From positions 1,080,869-1,144,868 of the forward strand of contig NZ_DS022299.1 in NCBI RefSeq assembly GCF_000153825.1: a stretch of DNA of 64,000 bases. Reading direction: 5' to 3'. The translations under genes were made by a program, and so were the position numbers. Position 1 is the first letter of the stretch. Every line of letters starts with the position of its first letter. Of this stretch, positions 12,799-25,816 are shown one piece after another. The notes beneath the pieces are model-generated. The model saw nothing but the letters and a program-made list of their open reading frames with translations. It was not told the origin of the DNA and made no database searches. The stretch comes from Synechococcus sp. RS9916 (GTDB lineage: Bacteria; Cyanobacteriota; Cyanobacteriia; PCC-6307; Cyanobiaceae).

Positions 12799-13009
12799 CG
12801 ACTTGAGATCGGGAACATCACCAAGTGAAGAAACTCTTGATTCAGCAAAAACCAGATTGTGTATCTGGCTGAACGACACAGGAGTTGGCACTGCTCCTAT
12901 AAAAGAGATGTAGCAACCACTACCAACAACGTTCACCTCCCTTTGCCGGGAGGCGCAGTTCGATTCAGGCCATGGAACGGGGACCTGAACTTGCTTCGAG
13001 GAACCTCAA

Positions 13010-14986: not shown

Positions 14987-15012
14987 CTGATGATCGTTTT
15001 GGCAGCAGGTGA

Positions 15013-15291
15013 TCAGATGTCGTCACCACCAGAACTAGCGCTGCTGATGAAGTCCTCCTTCACCGATCAGGACTATCCCCTGTGATGTCATTATTGCGAA
15101 CGTTGGCATTTTCTCTGATGACAATATTCTGATTCTTTTCAGTAGGGAGACTAGTGCTCTGGACACTACCGCCTCGCGCCATAGCAATCAACGCACCGAT
15201 AAGACCGTACTCGGTACCTGTGGATCCCCCAGAAGCATCCTTCAGCTGATCCAGGCTCAGCTCTTGGTCTTCAGTGCTTGGGGTCAGTCAT
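15013..15291 (-). pseudogene. Decayed GG-leader precursor gene
   Basis: An ATG at 15291 reads MTDPKH then stop, but one frame over the text continues TEDQELSLDQLKDASGG, a double-glycine leader. A possible core follows (STGTEYGLIGALIAMARGG). A second shift near 15060 would restore an ending SSASSGGDDI, similar to the end of the neighbouring gene. At least two frameshifts make a functional product unlikely. The related gene at 15329-15678 lies just upstream on the same strand. Confidence 0.55.
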
Positions 15292-15328
15292 CAGCTTGAA
15301 GTGGGTAGAGGGGGTAAAGCAGGTGATC

Positions 15329-15678
15329 TCAGATGTCGTCAACACCAGGATCAGCGCTGCCGAGGATGTTGTCCACTGGCTTACGAAAGCGAGGTGGCAC
15401 CTTGCATTCAATGCTGACTTGATCCTTGGGCAGAAGGGTCTCCAGGTGTATTCCAGTGTTAGCAGCTATTTCGCAGGAAACCCGGAACCATCTGGCGAGT
15501 CCATAGCCCAAGGGACACCTTGAGTGGTGACGAACTTCCGTCCACTGCCATCTAAAGGTGCTTGCTTCTTTCCTGGTTGGACATCAGGGTCGCATTCTGC
15601 TCCAGCACTAATTCCTCCACTGACCTTTTTTAATTCATCAAAAGAAAGCTCTTTGTCCTTGCCTTGCTCTTGGGACAT
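15329..15678 (-). pseudogene. GG-leader precursor gene with a frameshift
   Basis: The reading frame opens at ATG 15678 as MSQEQGKDKELSFDELKKVS, then GG, a typical double-glycine leader. It runs to a stop at 15466. From about 15490 another frame continues smoothly (SCEIAANTGIHLETLLPKDQ, then KPVDNILGSADPGVDDI). Adding one G in a GGG run joins the two frames, giving a protein of about 115 residues with Cys in the second half. The conserved promoter module lies upstream (15701-15710). It could also be a functional 70-residue product from the first frame alone. Confidence 0.55.
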
Positions 15679-15700
15679 AGCTAGCAACGGTCGCTTCAAC

Positions 15701-15710
15701 AGTAATAGCA
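15701..15710 (-). promoter_or_regulatory. Extended -10 promoter element, copy 4
   Basis: TGCTATTACT (minus strand) lies 32 bases before the ATG at 15678. The surrounding bases, from GCCGACCGC to the start codon, match the regions before the 4632 and 5374 genes, more than 10 kb away. Confidence 0.6.
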
Positions 15711-15736
15711 GCGGTCGGCAGCGTTGTCAGTTGGCA

Positions 15737-15764
15737 ATAAAAAGCCCCACCGTGTGGCGAGGCT
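15737..15764 (-). terminator. Terminator of the autotransporter-like gene
   Basis: On the minus strand an AGCCTCGCC / GGTGGGGCT imperfect stem is followed by TTTTTATT. It lies directly after the stop of the 15772 gene and before the GG-leader promoter. Confidence 0.65.
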
Positions 15765-15771
15765 GGTCACA

Positions 15772-17046
15772 TTATTCCCATCCTTCAAGCGCAACATCAA
15801 AAGTTGTATGCATGACTTCAATGCATGTGTCTGGATCTGAAGCGCAGAACTGTCCAAGTGGTCCAACAAATGGAACCTCAGTAAACTTTTTATAATTCTT
15901 GAGCCATTGGTTTTTAAGGCCTGCTTCTTCAAGAAGGTTATTAGCGCAAACCCAGTTGCCGTCAGATGCACATTTAAAAGCCATAATTTCGTACCCGACC
16001 ATTTTGACCCATTCCCCACCTGTATGAACACCCCCCACAAGTGGAGAAATTATATGATGCTTGCCCCAGCCTTCAGCTTTGCAAAGGAAAGCATCCCAAT
16101 GATGGCAGTCATGCACTCGAACGATTCGATTGTCGATGAAGTCGCTTACTGCGAATTGAACAGCACTATCGATTGACAGAGGAGCTTTTTTGCTTTGGGG
16201 AGTTCCTACTCTCAAAAATCCCAGCAAGCGACCCTCAAAAGCAGGGTCGTAAGTATATTCAACGCCCATCGAAAATGAGCCTGCAGGGTTTATCGCAATC
16301 GTGCTTTTTAGTCCTGAGCCATTGGCATATGTCAAGTCACCTTGCTGGTAGTAATAGCCAATTGATGCCGTAAGAAGTTCGTCAAAGCTGTGTTCAATAT
16401 CAATTCCATATGTATCTAATGCGCCACCACTGTAAAATAAATTCAGAACATCTTCTGTTTTTCCAACGGGAACCAAGGCATAAGGCTTGATAGCAATATT
16501 GTTGGTGACCAACTCAGCTCCAAAGGCTATTTGCTGGAAAAAGACATCTTGTGGCTGCAGAAGACTTCTCGGAGCCCAGGAATATCTAGACGGAATGCCA
16601 GTGGAGATGGGCCTGCTGTCATAGCCAGCATTAACCCCAAACAAGATGTCACCATTGTCATTAAGCCAGCGATATCCAATTCGCGATGATGTGCTAAAGG
16701 TTGTCCCTTCAACAGGAGTATTGACAATGCTGGAGGTGCTAAGAGCATCGCCAAAGTCAGCCGTTGCCAATGCATCCAGAAAGAATATAGATTTTCTTGT
16801 TGTGGAGATTGGGATAAAAACTTGTCCACCTGCTTGGTTGGGTGTTCCTGCGCCCTGAGACTTGGAAAATACATTCCATCTGAATTTAGTAGTTTTGCGA
16901 ATATCTATCGGCTCAGGTTCAGAGGCAGGTGTCGAAGTCAAATGATCATCAGGAAGCGCATCTTGCTTCAGGTCTCCTGCAAGCACTGGAGTCGATAACA
17001 GTGATGCAAAGGAAAAGAAGCAGCCAAATAGTAAATGCTTTTGCAT
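15772..17046 (-). CDS. Inverse-autotransporter-like outer-membrane barrel protein
   Basis: This 424-residue exported protein has a signal peptide (MQKHLLFGCFFSFASLLSTP, then VLAGD) and an acidic linker. Residues about 55-290 consist of repeated amphipathic beta strands with the pattern SRIGYRWLNDNGDILFGVNA, FGAELVTNNIAIKPYAL and IGYYYQQGDLTYA. This resembles the inverse-autotransporter (intimin/invasin) beta-domain found in marine Synechococcus. The C-terminal 120 residues form a Cys-containing domain (HDCHHWDAFLCKAEGW) that I do not recognise. It is likely surface-exposed; adhesion or defence is a guess. Confidence 0.65.
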   Translation of the reverse strand: MQKHLLFGCFFSFASLLSTPVLAGDLKQDALPDDHLTSTPASEPEPIDIRKTTKFRWNVFSKSQGAGTPNQAGGQVFIPISTTRKSIFFLDALATADFGDALSTSSIVNTPVEGTTFSTSSRIGYRWLNDNGDILFGVNAGYDSRPISTGIPSRYSWAPRSLLQPQDVFFQQIAFGAELVTNNIAIKPYALVPVGKTEDVLNLFYSGGALDTYGIDIEHSFDELLTASIGYYYQQGDLTYANGSGLKSTIAINPAGSFSMGVEYTYDPAFEGRLLGFLRVGTPQSKKAPLSIDSAVQFAVSDFIDNRIVRVHDCHHWDAFLCKAEGWGKHHIISPLVGGVHTGGEWVKMVGYEIMAFKCASDGNWVCANNLLEEAGLKNQWLKNYKKFTEVPFVGPLGQFCASDPDTCIEVMHTTFDVALEGWE

Positions 17047-17249
17047 GCTAATCTGCCTTCGCTTAAAGACTGGCGACTTTCATCGCAGAGTCAACAATTG
17101 AGTTGTGTTCTGAAACGTTGTATCTCCTGATGTAGGAAGACCCACAGCTTCTGTTTGGATATAGCTGGATGGGTTGTTTCGATAGTCACAACAGCGATCG
17201 GAGTCAGATTGCATTTTTACGAAAATAGACTGAGGGAAAGGGAGGATTT

Positions 17250-17666: not shown

Positions 17667-17808
17667 ACTTGCTACCGCTTTTACTACCGCAAGGCTGAGC
17701 GAGCGATTTCGCGGCTGAACCCAGATACAAGAAAACCCAGTCAGCGACTGGGCTTCAAAGAATGGAGCCAAGGAGACTCGAACTCCTGACCCCCTGCATG
17801 CCATGCAG
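17667..17808 (-). repeat. tRNA-Ala 3' half and flank, partner of the 13986-14126 repeat
   Basis: This is the intact counterpart of the decayed block at 14 kb. It includes the 3' half of the functional tRNA and its terminator. Direct-repeat orientation is as expected for attachment sites. Confidence 0.7.
17732..17752 (-). terminator. Terminator of the tRNA-Ala gene
   Basis: On the minus strand a CCCAGTC / GACTGGG stem with a three-base loop is followed by TTTTC. It lies just after the tRNA 3' end. Confidence 0.65.
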
Positions 17809-17835
17809 GTGCTCTACCAGCTGAGCTATGGCCCC
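17763..17835 (-). tRNA. tRNA-Ala (anticodon GGC)
   Basis: A 73-base cloverleaf with acceptor stem GGGGCCA / TGGCTCC contains the G3:U70 pair diagnostic for alanine. It has a D-arm GCTC-AGCTGGTA-GAGC, an anticodon arm CCTGC-ATGGCAT-GCAGG and a T-arm AGGAG-TTCGAGT-CTCCT, with A73. CCA is not encoded. It marks the border between island (left) and core genes (right). Confidence 0.95.
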
Positions 17836-19377: not shown

Positions 19378-20334
19378 TCAGAGGCCGCCCATCAATGCAG
19401 CCAGCAGGGCCTGCTGCGCATGGAGGCGATTTTCTGCCTGATCAAAGATGCGGCTTGCTGGGCCTTCCATCACCCCGGCACTGATCTCCTCGCCGCGGTG
19501 GGCCGGCAGGCAGTGCAGCACGATCGCGCGGGAATCAGCCTCCGCCAGCAGGTCTTCGTTCAGGCAGAAGCCCTGGAAGGCCCTTTCCCGCTCAGCCTGC
19601 TCCTGCTCCTGGCCCATGGAAGCCCACACATCGGTGTACAGCGCCTGGGCTCCTCGCACAGCCGCCACTGGATCGCTGGTGACGGTGATCTGAGCACCAC
19701 CCACAGCCAATGCGCGTGCTTGGTCGAGCACCCCCGGCAAGGGCTCAAACCCATCCGGGCAGCCAATGCGCACATTCACCCCAAGCAGAGCGCCGCAGAT
19801 CATCAGCGAGTGGGCCACGTTGTTGCCATCTCCCACGTAGGCCAGGGTCTGGCCCTGCAGATCGCCAAAGGCTTCCTGCATGGTGAGGAAATCGGCCAGG
19901 GCTTGGCAGGGGTGCTCCAGATCAGTGAGGGCATTGATCACCGGAATCGAGGCCCAATGGGCATAATCCACCAGCTCTTGCTGCGCGAAGGTGCGGATCG
20001 CCAGGGCATCACAGAACCGACTCAGCACCCGAGCGGTGTCTTCCAAGGGCTCGCCGCGGCCCAGTTGGGTGACCTGAGGGTTGAGATCCACGGTCTGACC
20101 ACCCAGCCGTGCCATCGCCACCTGAAAGCTGACCCGGGTGCGGGTGGAGGCCTTGGTGAAGATCAGCCCCAGCACCCGATTGCCCAGGTCAATGCGCCGG
20201 TCCCCTGATTTCAGCTGGGCGGCCAGGGTCAACAGCGCCGCGGTCTGCTCAGCATTCGCATCCTCTGATGAGAGGAAATCCCTGCCGCTCAGAGGGGAGA
20301 GAACAGAAGCAACACCCTGAGAGGCGCTGACCAT
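19378..20334 (-). CDS. argF: Ornithine carbamoyltransferase
   Basis: This enzyme makes citrulline from ornithine and carbamoyl phosphate in arginine biosynthesis. At 318 residues the length is normal. Carbamoyl-phosphate motif STRTR is in KASTRTRVSF; HPCQALAD and the ornithine/Cys loop HCLPAHRGEE are all present. It is cytosolic and trimeric in known members. It follows the TauD-like gene by 46 bases and precedes the hydrolase, so it may share a transcript with the upstream four-gene operon, although its role is general metabolism. Confidence 0.95.
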   Translation of the reverse strand: MVSASQGVASVLSPLSGRDFLSSEDANAEQTAALLTLAAQLKSGDRRIDLGNRVLGLIFTKASTRTRVSFQVAMARLGGQTVDLNPQVTQLGRGEPLEDTARVLSRFCDALAIRTFAQQELVDYAHWASIPVINALTDLEHPCQALADFLTMQEAFGDLQGQTLAYVGDGNNVAHSLMICGALLGVNVRIGCPDGFEPLPGVLDQARALAVGGAQITVTSDPVAAVRGAQALYTDVWASMGQEQEQAERERAFQGFCLNEDLLAEADSRAIVLHCLPAHRGEEISAGVMEGPASRIFDQAENRLHAQQALLAALMGGL

Positions 20335-20380: not shown

Positions 20381-21253
20381 TCAAGGGGTTTGGTTCAACC
20401 AGAGACGAATCAGACGCCGCGGCCTGTGCGGATCGTCCTCGTAGGCCTCCCTGTCATGCACCAATTTGTGGTTGTCAATCAGCAGGATGTCGCCCTCCTG
20501 CAGCTGGAAGCTGTGGCAGAAACGGGGGTGATTGAGGGCGGCATCGAGGGCATCAAAAGCGCGCAGGTCGTTCGCGTCGAGGGGCTGCCCCAGGCGCTGA
20601 TGCCCCTTCTCAATCCAGTAGCGCATGTAGCGCAGGGTGGGGCCATCCGTGTCTGTGCTGAACACGGGGAAGCGGTTGTGGGCGATCAGAGCCAAAGGGT
20701 CCACGGCGCCGGGCGTGACCACATCACGGGCAAAGCTGCGCTGCAAGCGCTCCAGGCTTCTGGGGTCGCTCGCCTTGAGGTGGTTATGCACCGCCAGCGC
20801 CGACGCCAGACGGGACCCACCCCCCACCGGCGCCTGCTGCACGCAGGCCAAACCAACCCAGCGGGGGTGCGTTTCGAGCCGAGAGCTATCGGTGTGCATC
20901 GAGGTGGCAGCCCGCGTCTGGGAGACGGGGATGGCCTTGGTGAGATACGACTGGCCACTGTCGGTGACGTCGTAGAGCTCGCCGTAGGTGCCATCGGGAG
21001 TGCCAAGACACCGACCTAAAGCGAGATAAAGGCGACGGAACGTCGACTCCGGTTGCGGCGACAACCCACGAATCAACACCACGCCGTAGCCGTGCAACAG
21101 CTGATCCCGGGCCGGTGCGAACCAGGCCTGCAAGGCCTCGGTTGACAGCAAAGCCAGCTCTGGATCCGCCGCCACGATCCACTGCTGCGACTCCGCCAGA
21201 TCAGCGGCAAGCCAGGGCTTCAACGGGGTGTTGCTCGCAGATGCACAGTTCAT
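20381..21253 (-). CDS. TauD/TfdA-like Fe(II)/2-oxoglutarate dioxygenase
   Basis: This 290-residue oxygenase has the HxD iron motif in SMHTDSSR, a distal His in NHKLVHDREAYED, and the 2-oxoglutarate-binding Arg in RPRRLIRLWL. Family members hydroxylate or desaturate small metabolites. The start ATG overlaps the methyltransferase stop (ATGA). With the upstream diiron-type enzyme, cupin and methyltransferase it forms a pathway-like operon. The substrate is unknown; taurine use is not implied. Confidence 0.82.
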   Translation of the reverse strand: MNCASASNTPLKPWLAADLAESQQWIVAADPELALLSTEALQAWFAPARDQLLHGYGVVLIRGLSPQPESTFRRLYLALGRCLGTPDGTYGELYDVTDSGQSYLTKAIPVSQTRAATSMHTDSSRLETHPRWVGLACVQQAPVGGGSRLASALAVHNHLKASDPRSLERLQRSFARDVVTPGAVDPLALIAHNRFPVFSTDTDGPTLRYMRYWIEKGHQRLGQPLDANDLRAFDALDAALNHPRFCHSFQLQEGDILLIDNHKLVHDREAYEDDPHRPRRLIRLWLNQTP

Positions 21254-22023
21254 CGCTTCAGCTCAAAGAGCAGATGAAGCGGCATCCCTTTCAACGGCCC
21301 GAAGAAAGCGGGATCAAGCGCCAGGTGCTCTGCGGTCACCCCCAGCTCATCGAGATAGGGAAGGCTGGTCCAGCCCGCCTCTGCCACGGCCCGCAGGTAG
21401 TCGGCCATGGTTTTGTGCACGCACCGCACTGGCGTAGAACCCCCATCACGCCGCCAGATGCGCCCCTCCAACAATTGATCACTAGCCTCCAGATAGGTGT
21501 GGTCGGCCGGATCGAAAAAGAAGGGTGGCTGCTGCGGCCTCAGATAGGCCAGCGAGGGATGGGGAACGGTGAACAGGAAGCGACCTCCCGGCCGCAAGCT
21601 CTGGTGCACGTGGCGCAGCACCGCTGTCGTGGCAGACAGGGAGAGGTAATTGAACAGAAACACCGCAATCGCCAGATCGCATGGCCCGGAGGGCAACTGA
21701 TCCACCTGGGACAGATCCCCAACCCTGTAGCGCAGCGGGCCGCCCTGATCCTCTCCGCCCGCTCCGGCCTGACGCCGCGCCGCCTCCACCATCTCCCGTG
21801 ACAGATCGATCCCCTCCACACCAGCGGGACGCTGAGGCAGCAGCTGGCGGCCCATGAACCCTTCACCGCAGCCCAGGTCCCAGATGTGCAAGCCAGCCAC
21901 AGAACCCAAGCGCTCCAGCACCCGAGGGCGAGCTGTGTAGTCACTCAGCAGTACCGGCTCCTGGCGATTCCAGGTGCTGGCATGGCGGTCGTAGAGCTGC
22001 TCAGTCGACGCAGGCTTGGTCAT
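21250..22023 (-). CDS. SAM-dependent class I methyltransferase
   Basis: This 257-residue methyltransferase has the SAM-binding motif I HIWDLGCGEGFMG, an acidic loop GIDLSREMV and LAIAVFLFNYLSL as motif IV region. It most resembles UbiE/BioC-like small-molecule methyltransferases. Both ends overlap neighbours by four bases, the upstream diiron-fusion gene and the downstream TauD-like gene, so translation is coupled. It probably methylates an intermediate of the same pathway. Confidence 0.82.
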   Translation of the reverse strand: MTKPASTEQLYDRHASTWNRQEPVLLSDYTARPRVLERLGSVAGLHIWDLGCGEGFMGRQLLPQRPAGVEGIDLSREMVEAARRQAGAGGEDQGGPLRYRVGDLSQVDQLPSGPCDLAIAVFLFNYLSLSATTAVLRHVHQSLRPGGRFLFTVPHPSLAYLRPQQPPFFFDPADHTYLEASDQLLEGRIWRRDGGSTPVRCVHKTMADYLRAVAEAGWTSLPYLDELGVTAEHLALDPAFFGPLKGMPLHLLFELKR

Positions 22024-23192
22024 AACCCGGTGGTAGCAGCAAGGCCACGGGTGCGGTCTGGATCAAGGGCCCGTTGATGCAGCCAATTCCAGAAGGCATC
22101 CCGGAGGCTGAGGGCTTTCACCATGCCTTTGGCCAGATCAGCACGCCCCTGGGGATCCACGGCATAGGCGGCTGCCACCTGCTTCAGCGTGGCCTGGTGG
22201 TGGTCGTCGACGGCGGTGTGCAACGGGAAGAACACGGCATCGCGCGCTTCTATCGCACCAAGGCCATTGATCGCCGTCACGAACGGTTGGTACAGGGTTT
22301 GCACAATCGTTTCTGTGCCCAACCCCAGCGCCCCCACCGCCTCTGCCGGTGAGCCATTGGTGAGGATCGCCAGAAACATCTCCCGCCAGCACAACACCTC
22401 AATGTGGTCGTCTTGCACCGCGGTATTGGCGACCCCCAAAGCCCGACGGAAACGTTGAAACAACTCCGGGTGCGGAATCCCCACGATCCATTCGGGCTGA
22501 ATCCCGATCGCTGCTAATTCGTCGAGTTCCTCCTGCTCATACACACCACTTTCCTCAGTGAGATTCTCAAGCAGAGCCTGGCGGTGGTCCGGATCCTCCA
22601 GGCAGGAAATCAAAGCCGTGAGGTAACGGGGGAAGTGGGCGGAATAGCCGTAGTAATGGCGCGCAAAATCCTCCAGCGCAAAACGCAGGTCGGGCAAGTG
22701 GCCGGCGGCCAGAGCCTGCAGGTAGGGATGACGCACCGCCCGATGCTGAAGCGCCGCTTCAGAGAGGTCGTCGACCAGCTGGGTGCTGCTGCGCTGATCC
22801 GTTTCCGCATCACGCTGGAGGCGGTGACGCTGCAGCGAACTGAGCGCACTGATCAATTCGTTCAGCAGCAGAGGCTGATCACTGAAGGCTTGGAAACAGG
22901 GCTCCCGGTCGATGGCACGCAAGCGCACCGGTCCAGACGCCACGACCGTCGCCGTGCGCGGGCGGTTGTCGAGAAACGCCATCTCACCCACCACTTCACC
23001 GCTGGCAACAGGCACCGATGCATCACGGGTCTGAGCCAGCAGTTCTCCTTCCTCCACCACATACAGCTGGGTGGTCACCTCTCCGCGAGCCATCACCTGA
23101 TCGCCATCGGCGAACTGCTGCGTTGTTCCGATCGCGCGCAACCGCTGTTGAAGCGGCTGAGACAGGGAATCCACAAACGTTGACGGGCTCAC
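22020..23192 (-). CDS. Cyclic-nucleotide-binding domain fused to haem-oxygenase-like diiron enzyme
   Basis: This 390-residue fusion has residues about 1-120 as a cNMP-binding fold, with the phosphate-binding cassette GEVVGEMAFLDNRPRTATVV (the GE and PR-TA positions of ligand-binding members are kept). Residues about 150-370 are a helical TenA/PqqC-like (haem-oxygenase-like diiron oxidase) domain: EDFARHYYGYSAHFP, ENLTEESG, and HxxxDxxH as HTAVDDHH. That last pattern is the metal-ligand motif of this enzyme group. A nucleotide sensor attached to such an oxidase is unusual. It overlaps both the cupin and the methyltransferase genes by four bases. Confidence 0.75.
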   Translation of the reverse strand: MSPSTFVDSLSQPLQQRLRAIGTTQQFADGDQVMARGEVTTQLYVVEEGELLAQTRDASVPVASGEVVGEMAFLDNRPRTATVVASGPVRLRAIDREPCFQAFSDQPLLLNELISALSSLQRHRLQRDAETDQRSSTQLVDDLSEAALQHRAVRHPYLQALAAGHLPDLRFALEDFARHYYGYSAHFPRYLTALISCLEDPDHRQALLENLTEESGVYEQEELDELAAIGIQPEWIVGIPHPELFQRFRRALGVANTAVQDDHIEVLCWREMFLAILTNGSPAEAVGALGLGTETIVQTLYQPFVTAINGLGAIEARDAVFFPLHTAVDDHHQATLKQVAAAYAVDPQGRADLAKGMVKALSLRDAFWNWLHQRALDPDRTRGLAATTGL

Positions 23193-23758
23193 GCGACGTC
23201 CTCCCCGTTGTGGCGCAGCCGAGTGCGCGCGTCGTAATCACCAAGAACCGTGCTGGTCAGCCCGAAATCGGTGATGGCCAGCAGCATCAACGGCTGCTGC
23301 TCAGATGGGTTGCAGGTTTGATGCACCACCCAGCGGGGCACAAAGGCCACCGCGCCACGCTCCAGCCGATGGGTCTGATCACCGATCTGGATCTCTGCCG
23401 AACCCGAAAGCACCACAAACAGTGATTCATGGGCATGGCGATGCTTCTCGTTGCAGGCACCGGGGGCAATGCGCACCACGCGCGGATCGAGCACCTCAGC
23501 AGCAAAGGGGTTGTCTTCGACGCAGAAATCGATCCCCCGCTTCGCGTCGCGATTGGCATAACGCAGCTGACCCTCACCAGGCTCCGCACCCGGTCGCCAC
23601 AGACAAACGCTGGCCTCCGGTTGGGCCGGCTGGTGGGGAGCCATCCGCTGGAGCAGCGGTCCGAGAGCATCCGGCAGCGACGGGCATGGTCGTGACGGCG
23701 ATTGCACAGACGGCAGTGGCCCTGACGGCAGTGGTGGTGTGGAGGTGAGATCAGGCAT
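23189..23758 (-). CDS. Cupin-domain protein
   Basis: From ATG 23758 the product has about 189 residues: a Pro/Ser-rich N-terminus, then a single cupin barrel. The metal motif is APGACNEKHRHAHESLFVVL (HxH with Glu), and motif 2 is VPRWVVHQTCNP. It is the first gene of the four-gene overlapping operon (ATGA with the fusion gene). It could be a dioxygenase or isomerase, or a small-molecule sensor. An upstream extension to 23842 in the same frame looks non-coding. Confidence 0.72.
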   Translation of the reverse strand: MPDLTSTPPLPSGPLPSVQSPSRPCPSLPDALGPLLQRMAPHQPAQPEASVCLWRPGAEPGEGQLRYANRDAKRGIDFCVEDNPFAAEVLDPRVVRIAPGACNEKHRHAHESLFVVLSGSAEIQIGDQTHRLERGAVAFVPRWVVHQTCNPSEQQPLMLLAITDFGLTSTVLGDYDARTRLRHNGEDVA

Positions 23759-23882
23759 GGCGATGGGACATGAAGCTTGGGGTCTGCCTCGATGACACTC
23801 ACTGTGGTGCCATTCCCCACAACCGGCATTGACCAGGATCAACAGTTGCTGTGATCGAGCTCACACCACGGAGCCAGCCCAC

Positions 23883-23910
23883 AAAAAGGCGGCCCCTTGC
23901 GGGACCGCTT
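23883..23910 (-). terminator. Rho-independent terminator after ftsH
   Basis: On the minus strand a GCGGTCCC-GCAA-GGGGCCGC stem is followed by a T-run. It lies about 40 bases after the ftsH stop. Confidence 0.75.
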
Positions 23911-23950: not shown

Positions 23951-25816
23951 TCAGCCGGGCATCACGCTGGCGGAGAGCATCTCCTTGAGCTCATCACCCT
24001 CGATCACCTCTTTCTCGAGGATCTTCTGGGAGATGGTTTCCAGCAGGGCCATGTTGTGGCGCAGGATGCCGAGGGCCTGCTCATGGGCCCGGTCCACCAG
24101 ACCACGCACCTCGCTATCGATCGCCTGGGCCGTGGCGTCACTCACCGTGCGGCGAGGGTTGTTGTTGCCCCCCAGGAAACGACCACCGCCCTGCTTGTCG
24201 TAAGCGAGGGGGCCAAGGGTTTCACTCATGCCGTAAGTGCCCACCATCTGCTCAGCGATGTCTGTCGCCCGCTGAAGGTCGTTGGCGGCACCCGTGGTGA
24301 TCTTCCCGAACACGATTTCCTCAGCGGAGCGGCCCCCAAGCAGGGTGGCGATCTGTCCTTCGAGGTCTTCGCGGGAGTTGAGGAAACGCTCTTCGGTGGG
24401 CAGCTGCAGGGTGTACCCCAGGGCACTCATGCCGCGGGGCACGATCGAAATCTTGGCCACCTTGCTGCCGCCGGGCATCAGGTGTCCCACGATCGCGTGG
24501 CCCACTTCGTGGTAGGCCACCACCTTCTTCTCGTCGTCTTGGAGCACACGGCTCTTCTTCTCCAGACCCGCAACCACCCGTTCGATCGCTTCGCCGAGAT
24601 CCTGCTGCTCCACCTTGGTGCGCTTGGCACGGGCGGCAAGCAGTGCTGCTTCATTCACCAGGTTGGCCAGATCGGCACCGGCGAAGCCACTGGTGGCCTG
24701 GGCGATGCGGTCGAGATCAACGCCTTCGGCCAGCTTCACCTTCTTGGCGTAGATGTCGAGGATGGTCTTGCGGCCCGACAGGTCGGGGCGGTCCACCAAC
24801 ACCTGGCGATCGAAGCGACCCGGACGCAGCAGAGCGGCATCCAACACTTCAGGTTGGTTGGTGGCAGCAAGCACGATCACCGGCTTGTCTTTGGAGGCAA
24901 AGCCATCCATTTCGGTGAGCAGCTGGTTAAGGGTCTGCTCACGCTCATCGTTGCCGCCGACCACACCCATGGAGCCGGAACGGCTCTTGCCGATGGCATC
25001 AAGTTCGTCGATGAAGATGATGCAGGGAGCGTTCTTCTTGGCCTGCTCGAACAGGTCGCGCACCCGGGCCGCACCTGCACCGACAAACAGCTCGACGAAT
25101 TCCGAGCCGCTGATGATGAAGAAGGGAACGCCTGCTTCACCAGCAACAGCTTTAGAAAGCAGGGTCTTACCAGTGCCGGGGGGGCCCACCAGCAACACAC
25201 CCTTGGGAATGCGGGCGCCGATCTCGGTGTAACGCTCGGATGACTTGAGGAAATCGACGATCTCCGTGAGTTCGTCTTTGGCCTCATCCACTCCGGCCAC
25301 ATCGGCAAAGGTGATGCGCGACTGCTCATCAGGCACGTAGACCTTGGCCTTGCTCTTGGTGAAGTTCAAGGCACCCTGAGCACCGCCGGCGCCCATGGAG
25401 CGGCGGGCAAAGAACTGCAGCACCAGGATGAAGATCAGCGGGGGGACAACCCAGCTGAGGATGGTGGTGAAAATATTGGGCTTCTTGGGAGGAGCGGCCG
25501 CAAATTCAACGCCTTTGGCTTCCAGGCGCTGCGGCAGATCCATATCGAAAATCGGCGTGGTGGCCAGCACCGACGGCGCCCCTTCTTCGGGAGCATTGAG
25601 CTCGTAACGGATCTGATCCTGGGTGATGAAGGCGCGCTTCACAGCCCCGTCATTGACCTGATCAATGAATAAGGAATAGGGCACCCGAGGCACCTGCTGC
25701 ATCCCCTGATTCGGCAGGAAGCTGCTGATCAGCAGCAACACCCCGAAACCGATCAATACCAGGTTGATGATGCCGAATCGCCTGTTCGGCTGATTGTCAT
25801 CCTCGCGAATCGCCAT
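23951..25816 (-). CDS. ftsH: FtsH membrane AAA+ metalloprotease
   Basis: This 621-residue protein is a membrane-anchored ATP-dependent protease for quality control, including photosystem II repair in cyanobacteria. It has two N-terminal membrane helices ([35 protein letters not shown]), Walker A GPPGTGKT, Walker [12 protein letters not shown], an SRH with RPGRFDRQV, and the zinc motif HEVGH. The longer frame to 26389 is not coding: [13 protein letters not shown] at 25816 is the usual start. Which of the cyanobacterial FtsH paralogs this is cannot be settled here. Confidence 0.96.

Follow-up and report, generated by a model that had tools for sequence, protein, structure and literature searches.

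The window analyzed here, a stretch of 64,000 nucleotides from Synechococcus sp. RS9916 (contig NZ_DS022299.1, positions 1,080,869 to 1,144,868), carries on its minus strand a cassette of four genes in which a cyclic-nucleotide-binding domain (CNB) is fused to a haem-oxygenase-like diiron domain (HDO). The first gene encodes a cupin (23189–23758, 189 residues from an ATG start, Cupin_2 3e-16), for which a longer frame starting from a TTG at 23842 is likewise open. It is followed by the CNB-HDO fusion (22020–23192, GTG start, 390 residues), a class I S-adenosylmethionine-dependent methyltransferase (MT; 21250–22023, 257 residues, Methyltransf_25 6.7e-16), and a TauD-family Fe(II)/2-oxoglutarate oxygenase (20381–21253, 290 residues, Pfam TauD 4.1e-43). 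Each junction is an overlap of exactly four bases, read off the sequence as a preliminary description of this DNA had claimed, and the operon coordinates given there match ours exactly. Overlaps of this kind are common in operons; conserved partner genes carry more weight as evidence for an operon.

The sequence motifs named in that description were recovered as well, i.e., the nucleotide cassette GEMAFLDNRPRTAT from residue 69 of the fusion, the diiron motif FFPLHTAVDDHH from residue 321, and the HTD of TauD at residue 120. The TauD protein scored 148.6 bits against a Pfam cut-off of 27, and its H120/D122/H266 triad together with the distal R279 was invariant in an alignment of 22 rows (window included). 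In the cupin, HRHAH (residue 106) and PRWVVHQTCN (residue 141) fit what we take to be the two cupin motifs.

Predicted structure of the fusion protein

The HDO (22020–22796, approximately residues 133–390) was matched by the Pfam family Haem_oxygenas_2 (6.9e-19, residues 175–364). Its six metal ligands (E214, H241, E294, H325, D329, and H332) showed no variation in two alignments (21 and 35 rows) and align with what we assume to be the ligand residues of CADD. An AlphaFold2 model of the whole fusion reached a mean predicted local distance difference test (pLDDT) score of 94.6. When the modeled HDO was compared with known structures using VIA-align, HrmI (Z 24.8, root-mean-square deviation (rmsd) 2.5, 226 residues) and CADD (Z 24.3, rmsd 2.0, 211 residues) came first, tied by the rule of the tool (Z less than 1 apart), followed by BesC (Z 23.0, rmsd 2.2, 213 residues), FlcD (Z 22.5), HamA (Z 20.7), and UndA (Z 20.6), with RohS and PolF likewise within Z 19–25. 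The predicted helical bundle together with the six Glu/His/Asp ligands places the domain in the HDO superfamily, and the second half of the fusion aligned with CADD-, BesC-, PqqC-, and UndA-type proteins.

HrmI, HamA, and RohS, whose fold resembles that of the HDO studied here, are N-oxygenases of this superfamily and have the six-ligand dimetal site in common with it. SznF shares with the operon a cupin partner (parts of PMC13108848), and is set apart from other characterized HDOs by having this cupin at its C-terminus (parts of PMC13108848 and PMC10849742). Unlike these N-oxygenases, the HDO of the cassette is fused to a CNB, has TauD and MT as partners, and has its cupin encoded on a separate open reading frame (ORF). 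Among its relatives, single chains with both parts do occur: four cyanobacterial loci (L056, L057, L069, and L072) have the cupin at the C-terminus of the HDO, and the picocyanobacterium L229 has it at the N-terminus. SznF, an N-nitrosating enzyme that acts on N-methylarginine, was not among the PDB matches listed for the HDO, an absence that excludes nothing. The nearest sequence profile is that of the CADD/NePabS p-aminobenzoate synthases, whose operon differs from the one described here, and the second-nearest characterized profile is that of the 4-chloro-allylglycine synthase BesC (approximately 19% identity), whose operon partners presumably differ from those here as well.

The CNB (22809–23192, approximately residues 1–128) scored 46.8 bits against a cut-off of 27.5 with the Pfam family cNMP_binding (3.1e-12, residues 25–101), and its model matched HCN2 (Z 17.6, rmsd 1.6, 118 residues) as well as 5h5o, a cGMP effector of bacteria (Z 17.4). 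The domain has the same fold and the same intact phosphate-binding cassette, including E70 and R79, as the CNB domains of CRP, PKA/PKG, HCN channels, and 5h5o. Its output module is a metallo-oxygenase, whereas in CRP, PKA/PKG, and HCN channels it is a DNA-binding domain, a kinase, or a channel.

Distribution of the operon family

MT was used as the anchor of the family. A profile scan of named genomes gave 102 MT relatives, 80 of which were used; the presence of other genes in these loci was scored with custom-built hidden Markov model profiles (score > 30), and phylum labels were assigned by hand. The 80 loci belong to Cyanobacteriota (49), Planctomycetota (9), Bacteroidota (7), Pseudomonadota (5), Myxococcota (3), Kiritimatiellota (1), and Verrucomicrobiota (1), seven named phyla overall, with five loci left unplaced. 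The distance from MT to an HDO was at most 5 kb in 75 of them, and at most 300 bp in 69. Conservation, which the preliminary description had left to be checked, was thus found: the gene set recurs outside this genome and the gene order is not unique to it. Among 388 cyanobacterial genomes, with that of RS9916 counted, HDO was detected in 25 (E ≤ 1e-6) and MT in 19 (E ≤ 1e-40), and all 19 also have HDO.

TauD was found near MT in 27 of the 80 loci and a conserved family of approximately 335 residues without a Pfam match over the cut-off, labeled c4, in 36, the two never occurring together. Whether c4 might be a hidden Fe/2-oxoglutarate oxygenase was considered, but only an HSD...H...R pattern recognized by eye and its mutual exclusion with TauD speak for this. 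Its AlphaFold2 model had a pLDDT of just 46.2, a PDB search gave nothing significant (best E 0.37), and hhalign against TauD returned Prob 0.2 on a percent scale. Examples at L061:7907-8911 and L134:9476-10429 are highly conserved, and c4 adjoins MT-HDO in filamentous cyanobacteria. An unfused cupin is rare (5 of the 80 loci). The cupin-HDO fusions mentioned above and a fusion of c4 to HDO (L134) provide independent evidence that these parts work together.

Adenylation genes of the AMP-binding type adjoin MT-HDO at L142:5884-8608 (with a carrier-protein domain) and at L156:8738-11443, and hint that some relatives may feed their product into a peptide-type assembly. Plasmids gave three matches, each confined to the HDO part, with 28–35% identity over 55–59% of the query; one of them, Indioceanicola L075, carries an HDO-MT pair. 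In viral contigs two stretches matched a pattern, neither of which encodes a relative. A 1.5-Mb genome from the same family as RS9916 (G720, L231) has a diverged MT (37%) with an HDO (30%) approximately 1 kb away.

Sensory partners of the MT-HDO core

In filamentous cyanobacteria the MT-HDO pair adjoins H-NOX, a haem-based sensor of nitric oxide (NO) or O2 (HNOB 1.7e-58), and an HNOBA histidine kinase, and some of these loci also carry an HNOBA-GAF-PAS-GGDEF-EAL protein. H-NOX was present in 47 of the 388 cyanobacterial genomes, namely in 18 of the 19 with MT vs. 29 of the 369 without it (Fisher p ~2e-17, not corrected for relatedness); in 17 of the 19 it was no more than 6 kb from MT. The two exceptions are the genome of RS9916, which has the fused CNB and gave no H-NOX match, and G227, whose MT-TauD-HDO genes are followed by a hybrid kinase of the ethylene-receptor-like (ETR1_N) type; L065:7743-13683 shows such an arrangement, the kinase taking the place of H-NOX. 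Across the 80 loci, H-NOX was found within 5 kb of MT in 42 and a CNB fusion in five, never both. H-NOX loci that are non-cyanobacterial or unplaced are L084 (a proteobacterium), L085 (the Planctomycete Poly30), L113 (unplaced), and L154 (Rhizobacter), and the HNOBA kinase accompanies H-NOX in the first three. The H-NOX/HNOBA kinase and HNOBA-GGDEF-EAL modules adjoin in other bacteria the same core that stands here without H-NOX. The role of H-NOX beside those operons may be to control the pathway in response to NO or O2, or to read its product.

Besides the window, CNB-HDO fusions were found at L077, L080, L082 (Kiritimatiellia), L087 (Fuerstiella), and L097 (UBP10), which agrees with the earlier remark that such enzymes are seldom fused to a nucleotide sensor (the window and five of the 80 MT loci). 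For the CNB, the profile came from the window sequence alone; L082, L087, and L097 were confirmed by Pfam, L077 and L080 by the profile only. All six fusions keep G69-E70-x-A72 and R79-x-A81-T82 of the phosphate-binding cassette. Among close relatives, L078 has a shortened CNB remnant and L079 only a short N-terminal piece. A quick FastTree phylogeny of HDO (57 rows, i.e., 72 HDO rows minus 26 near-identical Nostocales loci, plus the window and ten others), for which the tool flagged long branches meeting, put the six fusions into one group of 11 together with CNB-less or CNB-trimmed relatives (support 94, below the mark of 95). This grouping allows for a single fusion event followed by losses, and several independent gains can be accommodated as well. 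In a second tree, built from MT (79 of the 80 loci plus the window, L080 being omitted for its broken MT), L097 did not group with the window as it does by HDO, which points to a possible exchange of genes among the operons. Separate CNB-domain genes were seen in same-genus genomes without the cassette, some kb from argF or lexA (L186:9685-9978, L188:4047-4346, and L189:2094-2387).

The leader of the cassette (192 bp) holds the palindrome TGTGATCGAGCTCACA at 23850–23865, centered approximately 100 bp upstream of the cupin ATG. It is the sole exact match in the window to TGTGAN6TCACA, the consensus described for cyanobacterial CRP in parts of PMC2633013, which also report that CRP and its sites are missing from some marine Synechococcus genomes. 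Genome-wide there are 27 exact sites vs. one for a reversed control pattern, and at that density a leader of such length should hold approximately 0.002 sites, a post hoc figure because the site had been noticed by eye before testing. The RS9916 genome has seven CRP-type helix-turn-helix matches, five of them over the cut-off, and a cassette that looks nucleotide-binding-like was recognizable by eye in one protein (L211). It also encodes two class III nucleotide cyclases, and such cyclases were found in four of the five other fusion genomes (L080, L082, L087, and L097). They do not mark the fusion, since the fusion-less relatives L078, L079, L081, and L099 have them too. At G000:C1:1024718-1026254, which lies outside the window, exact CRP-type palindromes recur four times at intervals of exactly 512 bp and suggest a tandem array with one site per unit.

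Genomic position

The cassette is flanked by two genes outside the system, argF (19378–20334, minus strand) and ftsH (23951–25804, minus strand; the start at 25804 is assumed, the frame being open to 26389). A terminator-like hairpin, identified by a consensus match only, lies between ftsH and the operon (23889–23908, minus strand), and for this reason the four genes probably form a transcription unit of their own. Among 31 genomes of the genus (own included), argF was matched in 27 and not in the remaining four. In the 26 congeners with argF, ftsH adjoins it across a gap of roughly 70–390 bp from which the cassette is absent. The same four gene families occupy the same gap in four Cyanobium-type metagenome-assembled genomes (MAGs; L077–L080), with a changed order in L078. 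In L078 (the same record as L226) the cupin is broken and split over two frames, while in L080 (the same record as L228) the MT and TauD frames are broken and extra HDO fragments occur; judging from these frames, both are decaying copies of the cassette. In the wider family, MT was detected in nine of 400 genomes (E ≤ 1e-30), five of which are apparently L077–L081. Neither ftsH nor argF was seen in the stretches fetched from four genomes of the family (L229–L232, made up of L081 and three others), so the cassette is not always at the ftsH|argF site; the other 75 MT loci contained neither of them. The G+C content of the cassette is like that of its flanks and gives no signal of lateral transfer. 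Loss in most lineages and transfer by recombination both fit as the origin of this patchy distribution.

A link to arginine via argF was considered and rejected, as argF and ftsH mark the insertion site in the window and L077–L080 only. A functional meaning of the position next to argF, which the preliminary description had mentioned, is not supported, while the other part of its interpretation, an HDO with complete ligands fused to a CNB with an intact cassette in a conserved operon of O2-dependent enzymes, is supported. The association with H-NOX, the breadth of the MT-HDO family, and the fusions of cupin and HDO go beyond that description.

Elsewhere in the window, a Glutamine-II riboswitch was found at 12927–12989 (72.8 bits). 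A possible island at 15000–17050 has a G+C content of 0.455–0.495 vs. 0.60–0.64 beyond 18 kb, holds an ORF of 424 residues, and sits approximately 700 bases from a tRNA gene (17763–17835).

Discussion

We read the cassette, with modest confidence, as a self-contained, O2-dependent pathway acting on an amino-acid-type compound, in which the gas-sensor partner of related operons has been replaced by cyclic-nucleotide control. The diiron HDO would oxidize an amino-acid-type substrate, N-oxygenation being our best guess, MT and the TauD-type oxygenase would modify the product, and the mononuclear cupin would complete or rearrange it by analogy with SznF, as that enzyme is treated in parts of PMC13108848 and PMC10849742. 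Many lineages of the MT-HDO family carry the H-NOX gas sensor alongside, usually together with its kinase, and in the HDO group of this cassette a CNB fused to the HDO is found instead. Transcription and enzyme activity are probably both set by a cyclic nucleotide, because the CNB is fused to the HDO and a CRP-type site lies in the leader. The predicted control gains indirect support from this site, the class III cyclases, and the CRP-family regulators; nucleotide binding, an allosteric effect on the HDO, and CRP control of the leader would be its components.

Several observations weigh against this interpretation. The fold cannot separate N-oxygenation from C-C cleavage, given the tie of HrmI and CADD, and sequence profiles put CADD and BesC above HrmI. 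The CNB is absent or cut short in the close relatives L078, L079, L081, and L229, and its occurrence was only weakly clustered when mapped onto the HDO phylogeny (5 changes for 6 rows, with 73 of 500 shuffles at or below this number); the MT phylogeny showed no clustering of it (5 changes for 5 rows, with all 500 shuffles at or below this number). Apart from having been noticed by eye first, the CRP-type site has no exact counterpart in L077–L081, and the pattern with one mismatch was not enriched in the window (4 vs. a mean of 2.23, as high in 20 of 100 shuffles). No class III cyclase was detected in the genome of L077, which has an intact fusion and an assembly of only 1.7 Mb. The scan that gave the terminator-like hairpin found no sigma-70-like promoter. 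HDO was undetected near MT in five of the 80 loci (L088, L125, L126, L141, and L149), and 17 of the 80 have neither TauD nor c4. Finally, the H-NOX loci are not independent, because 38 of the 42 are cyanobacterial, largely Nostocales.

The HDO could instead be a lyase of the BesC/UndA type, one that cleaves C-C or C-N bonds and so converts an amino or fatty acid into an alkene, alkyne, or aldehyde, an alternative that we regard as somewhat unlikely but serious. The first ranks of CADD and BesC in the profile searches and the Z of BesC speak for it. Against it, the top structural match is the N-oxygenase HrmI, even if tied with CADD, and the cupin partners bring to mind the N-N chemistry of the SznF type, which serves as a lead and not as a test.

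It is rather unlikely, in our estimation, that the CNB is a passive or dimerizing module without nucleotide control. Such a role would sit well with its absence or truncation in the four close relatives and with the fusion in L077, for which no cyclase was detected. Two points speak for control by a nucleotide: the Glu and Arg of the cassette are kept in six of six fusions, which come from picocyanobacteria, Kiritimatiellota, Planctomycetota, and UBP10, and class III cyclases occur in four of the five other fusion genomes as well as in that of RS9916.

Distinctly less probable is an operon that is merely a laterally mobile accessory island without a settled function, located beside argF by chance. 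Its presence in only one of the 27 same-genus genomes with argF, with the gap empty in the other 26, would be expected of such an island; the intact frames, the flank-like G+C content, the recurrence of the four gene families in the same gap of four Cyanobium-type MAGs (L078 and L080 damaged), and the conservation of the partners across phyla would not. A CADD-type self-sacrificing p-aminobenzoate synthase for folate, despite CADD being the nearest sequence profile, is hardly credible and was rejected, because Leu158 and Phe304 stand (in an alignment read by eye) at the positions of both the sacrificial Tyr27 and the amine donor Lys152 of CADD (roles as given in parts of PMC11965152), NCBIfam TIGR04305 scored 58.6 bits vs. 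a cut-off of 200, and MT, TauD, and cupin partners would not fit folate synthesis.

Returning to the O2-dependent pathway under exchanged sensory control, a bolder extension, which we consider improbable, is that the product of the MT-HDO core is a small molecule that binds haem or releases NO (e.g., an N-nitroso compound or a diazeniumdiolate), that in many bacteria the adjacent H-NOX kinase reads this molecule or its gas as part of one signaling circuit, and that picocyanobacteria and some Planctomycetota and Kiritimatiellota swapped this sensing for a CNB fused to the HDO.

In the literature searched, no paper joining H-NOX and heme oxygenase-like proteins was found, and the matches listed contained none that joins cyclic nucleotide-binding (domain) with heme/haem-oxygenase-like. 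Judged by titles and the starts of abstracts among the matches listed, no description of the MT-HDO operon family was found either, and the main text of a 2026 HDO review (PMC13108848) contains none of the terms cyanobacteri, methyltransferase, cyclic nucleotide, fusion, or nitric oxide.

The enzyme family of the HDOs is growing and its chemistry is unusual, and the operons described here form a coherent HDO operon family that extends over several phyla, is present in Nostoc-type cyanobacteria, and is repeatedly tied to a gas sensor or a cyclic-nucleotide domain. They offer a direct route to two questions: what a bacterial H-NOX senses when its gene adjoins a biosynthetic operon, and whether a diiron oxygenase can be switched directly by a second messenger. 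If cyclic-nucleotide control has indeed been swapped in for the gas sensor in Synechococcus sp. RS9916, the fusion would be a cyclic-nucleotide-gated metallo-oxygenase.

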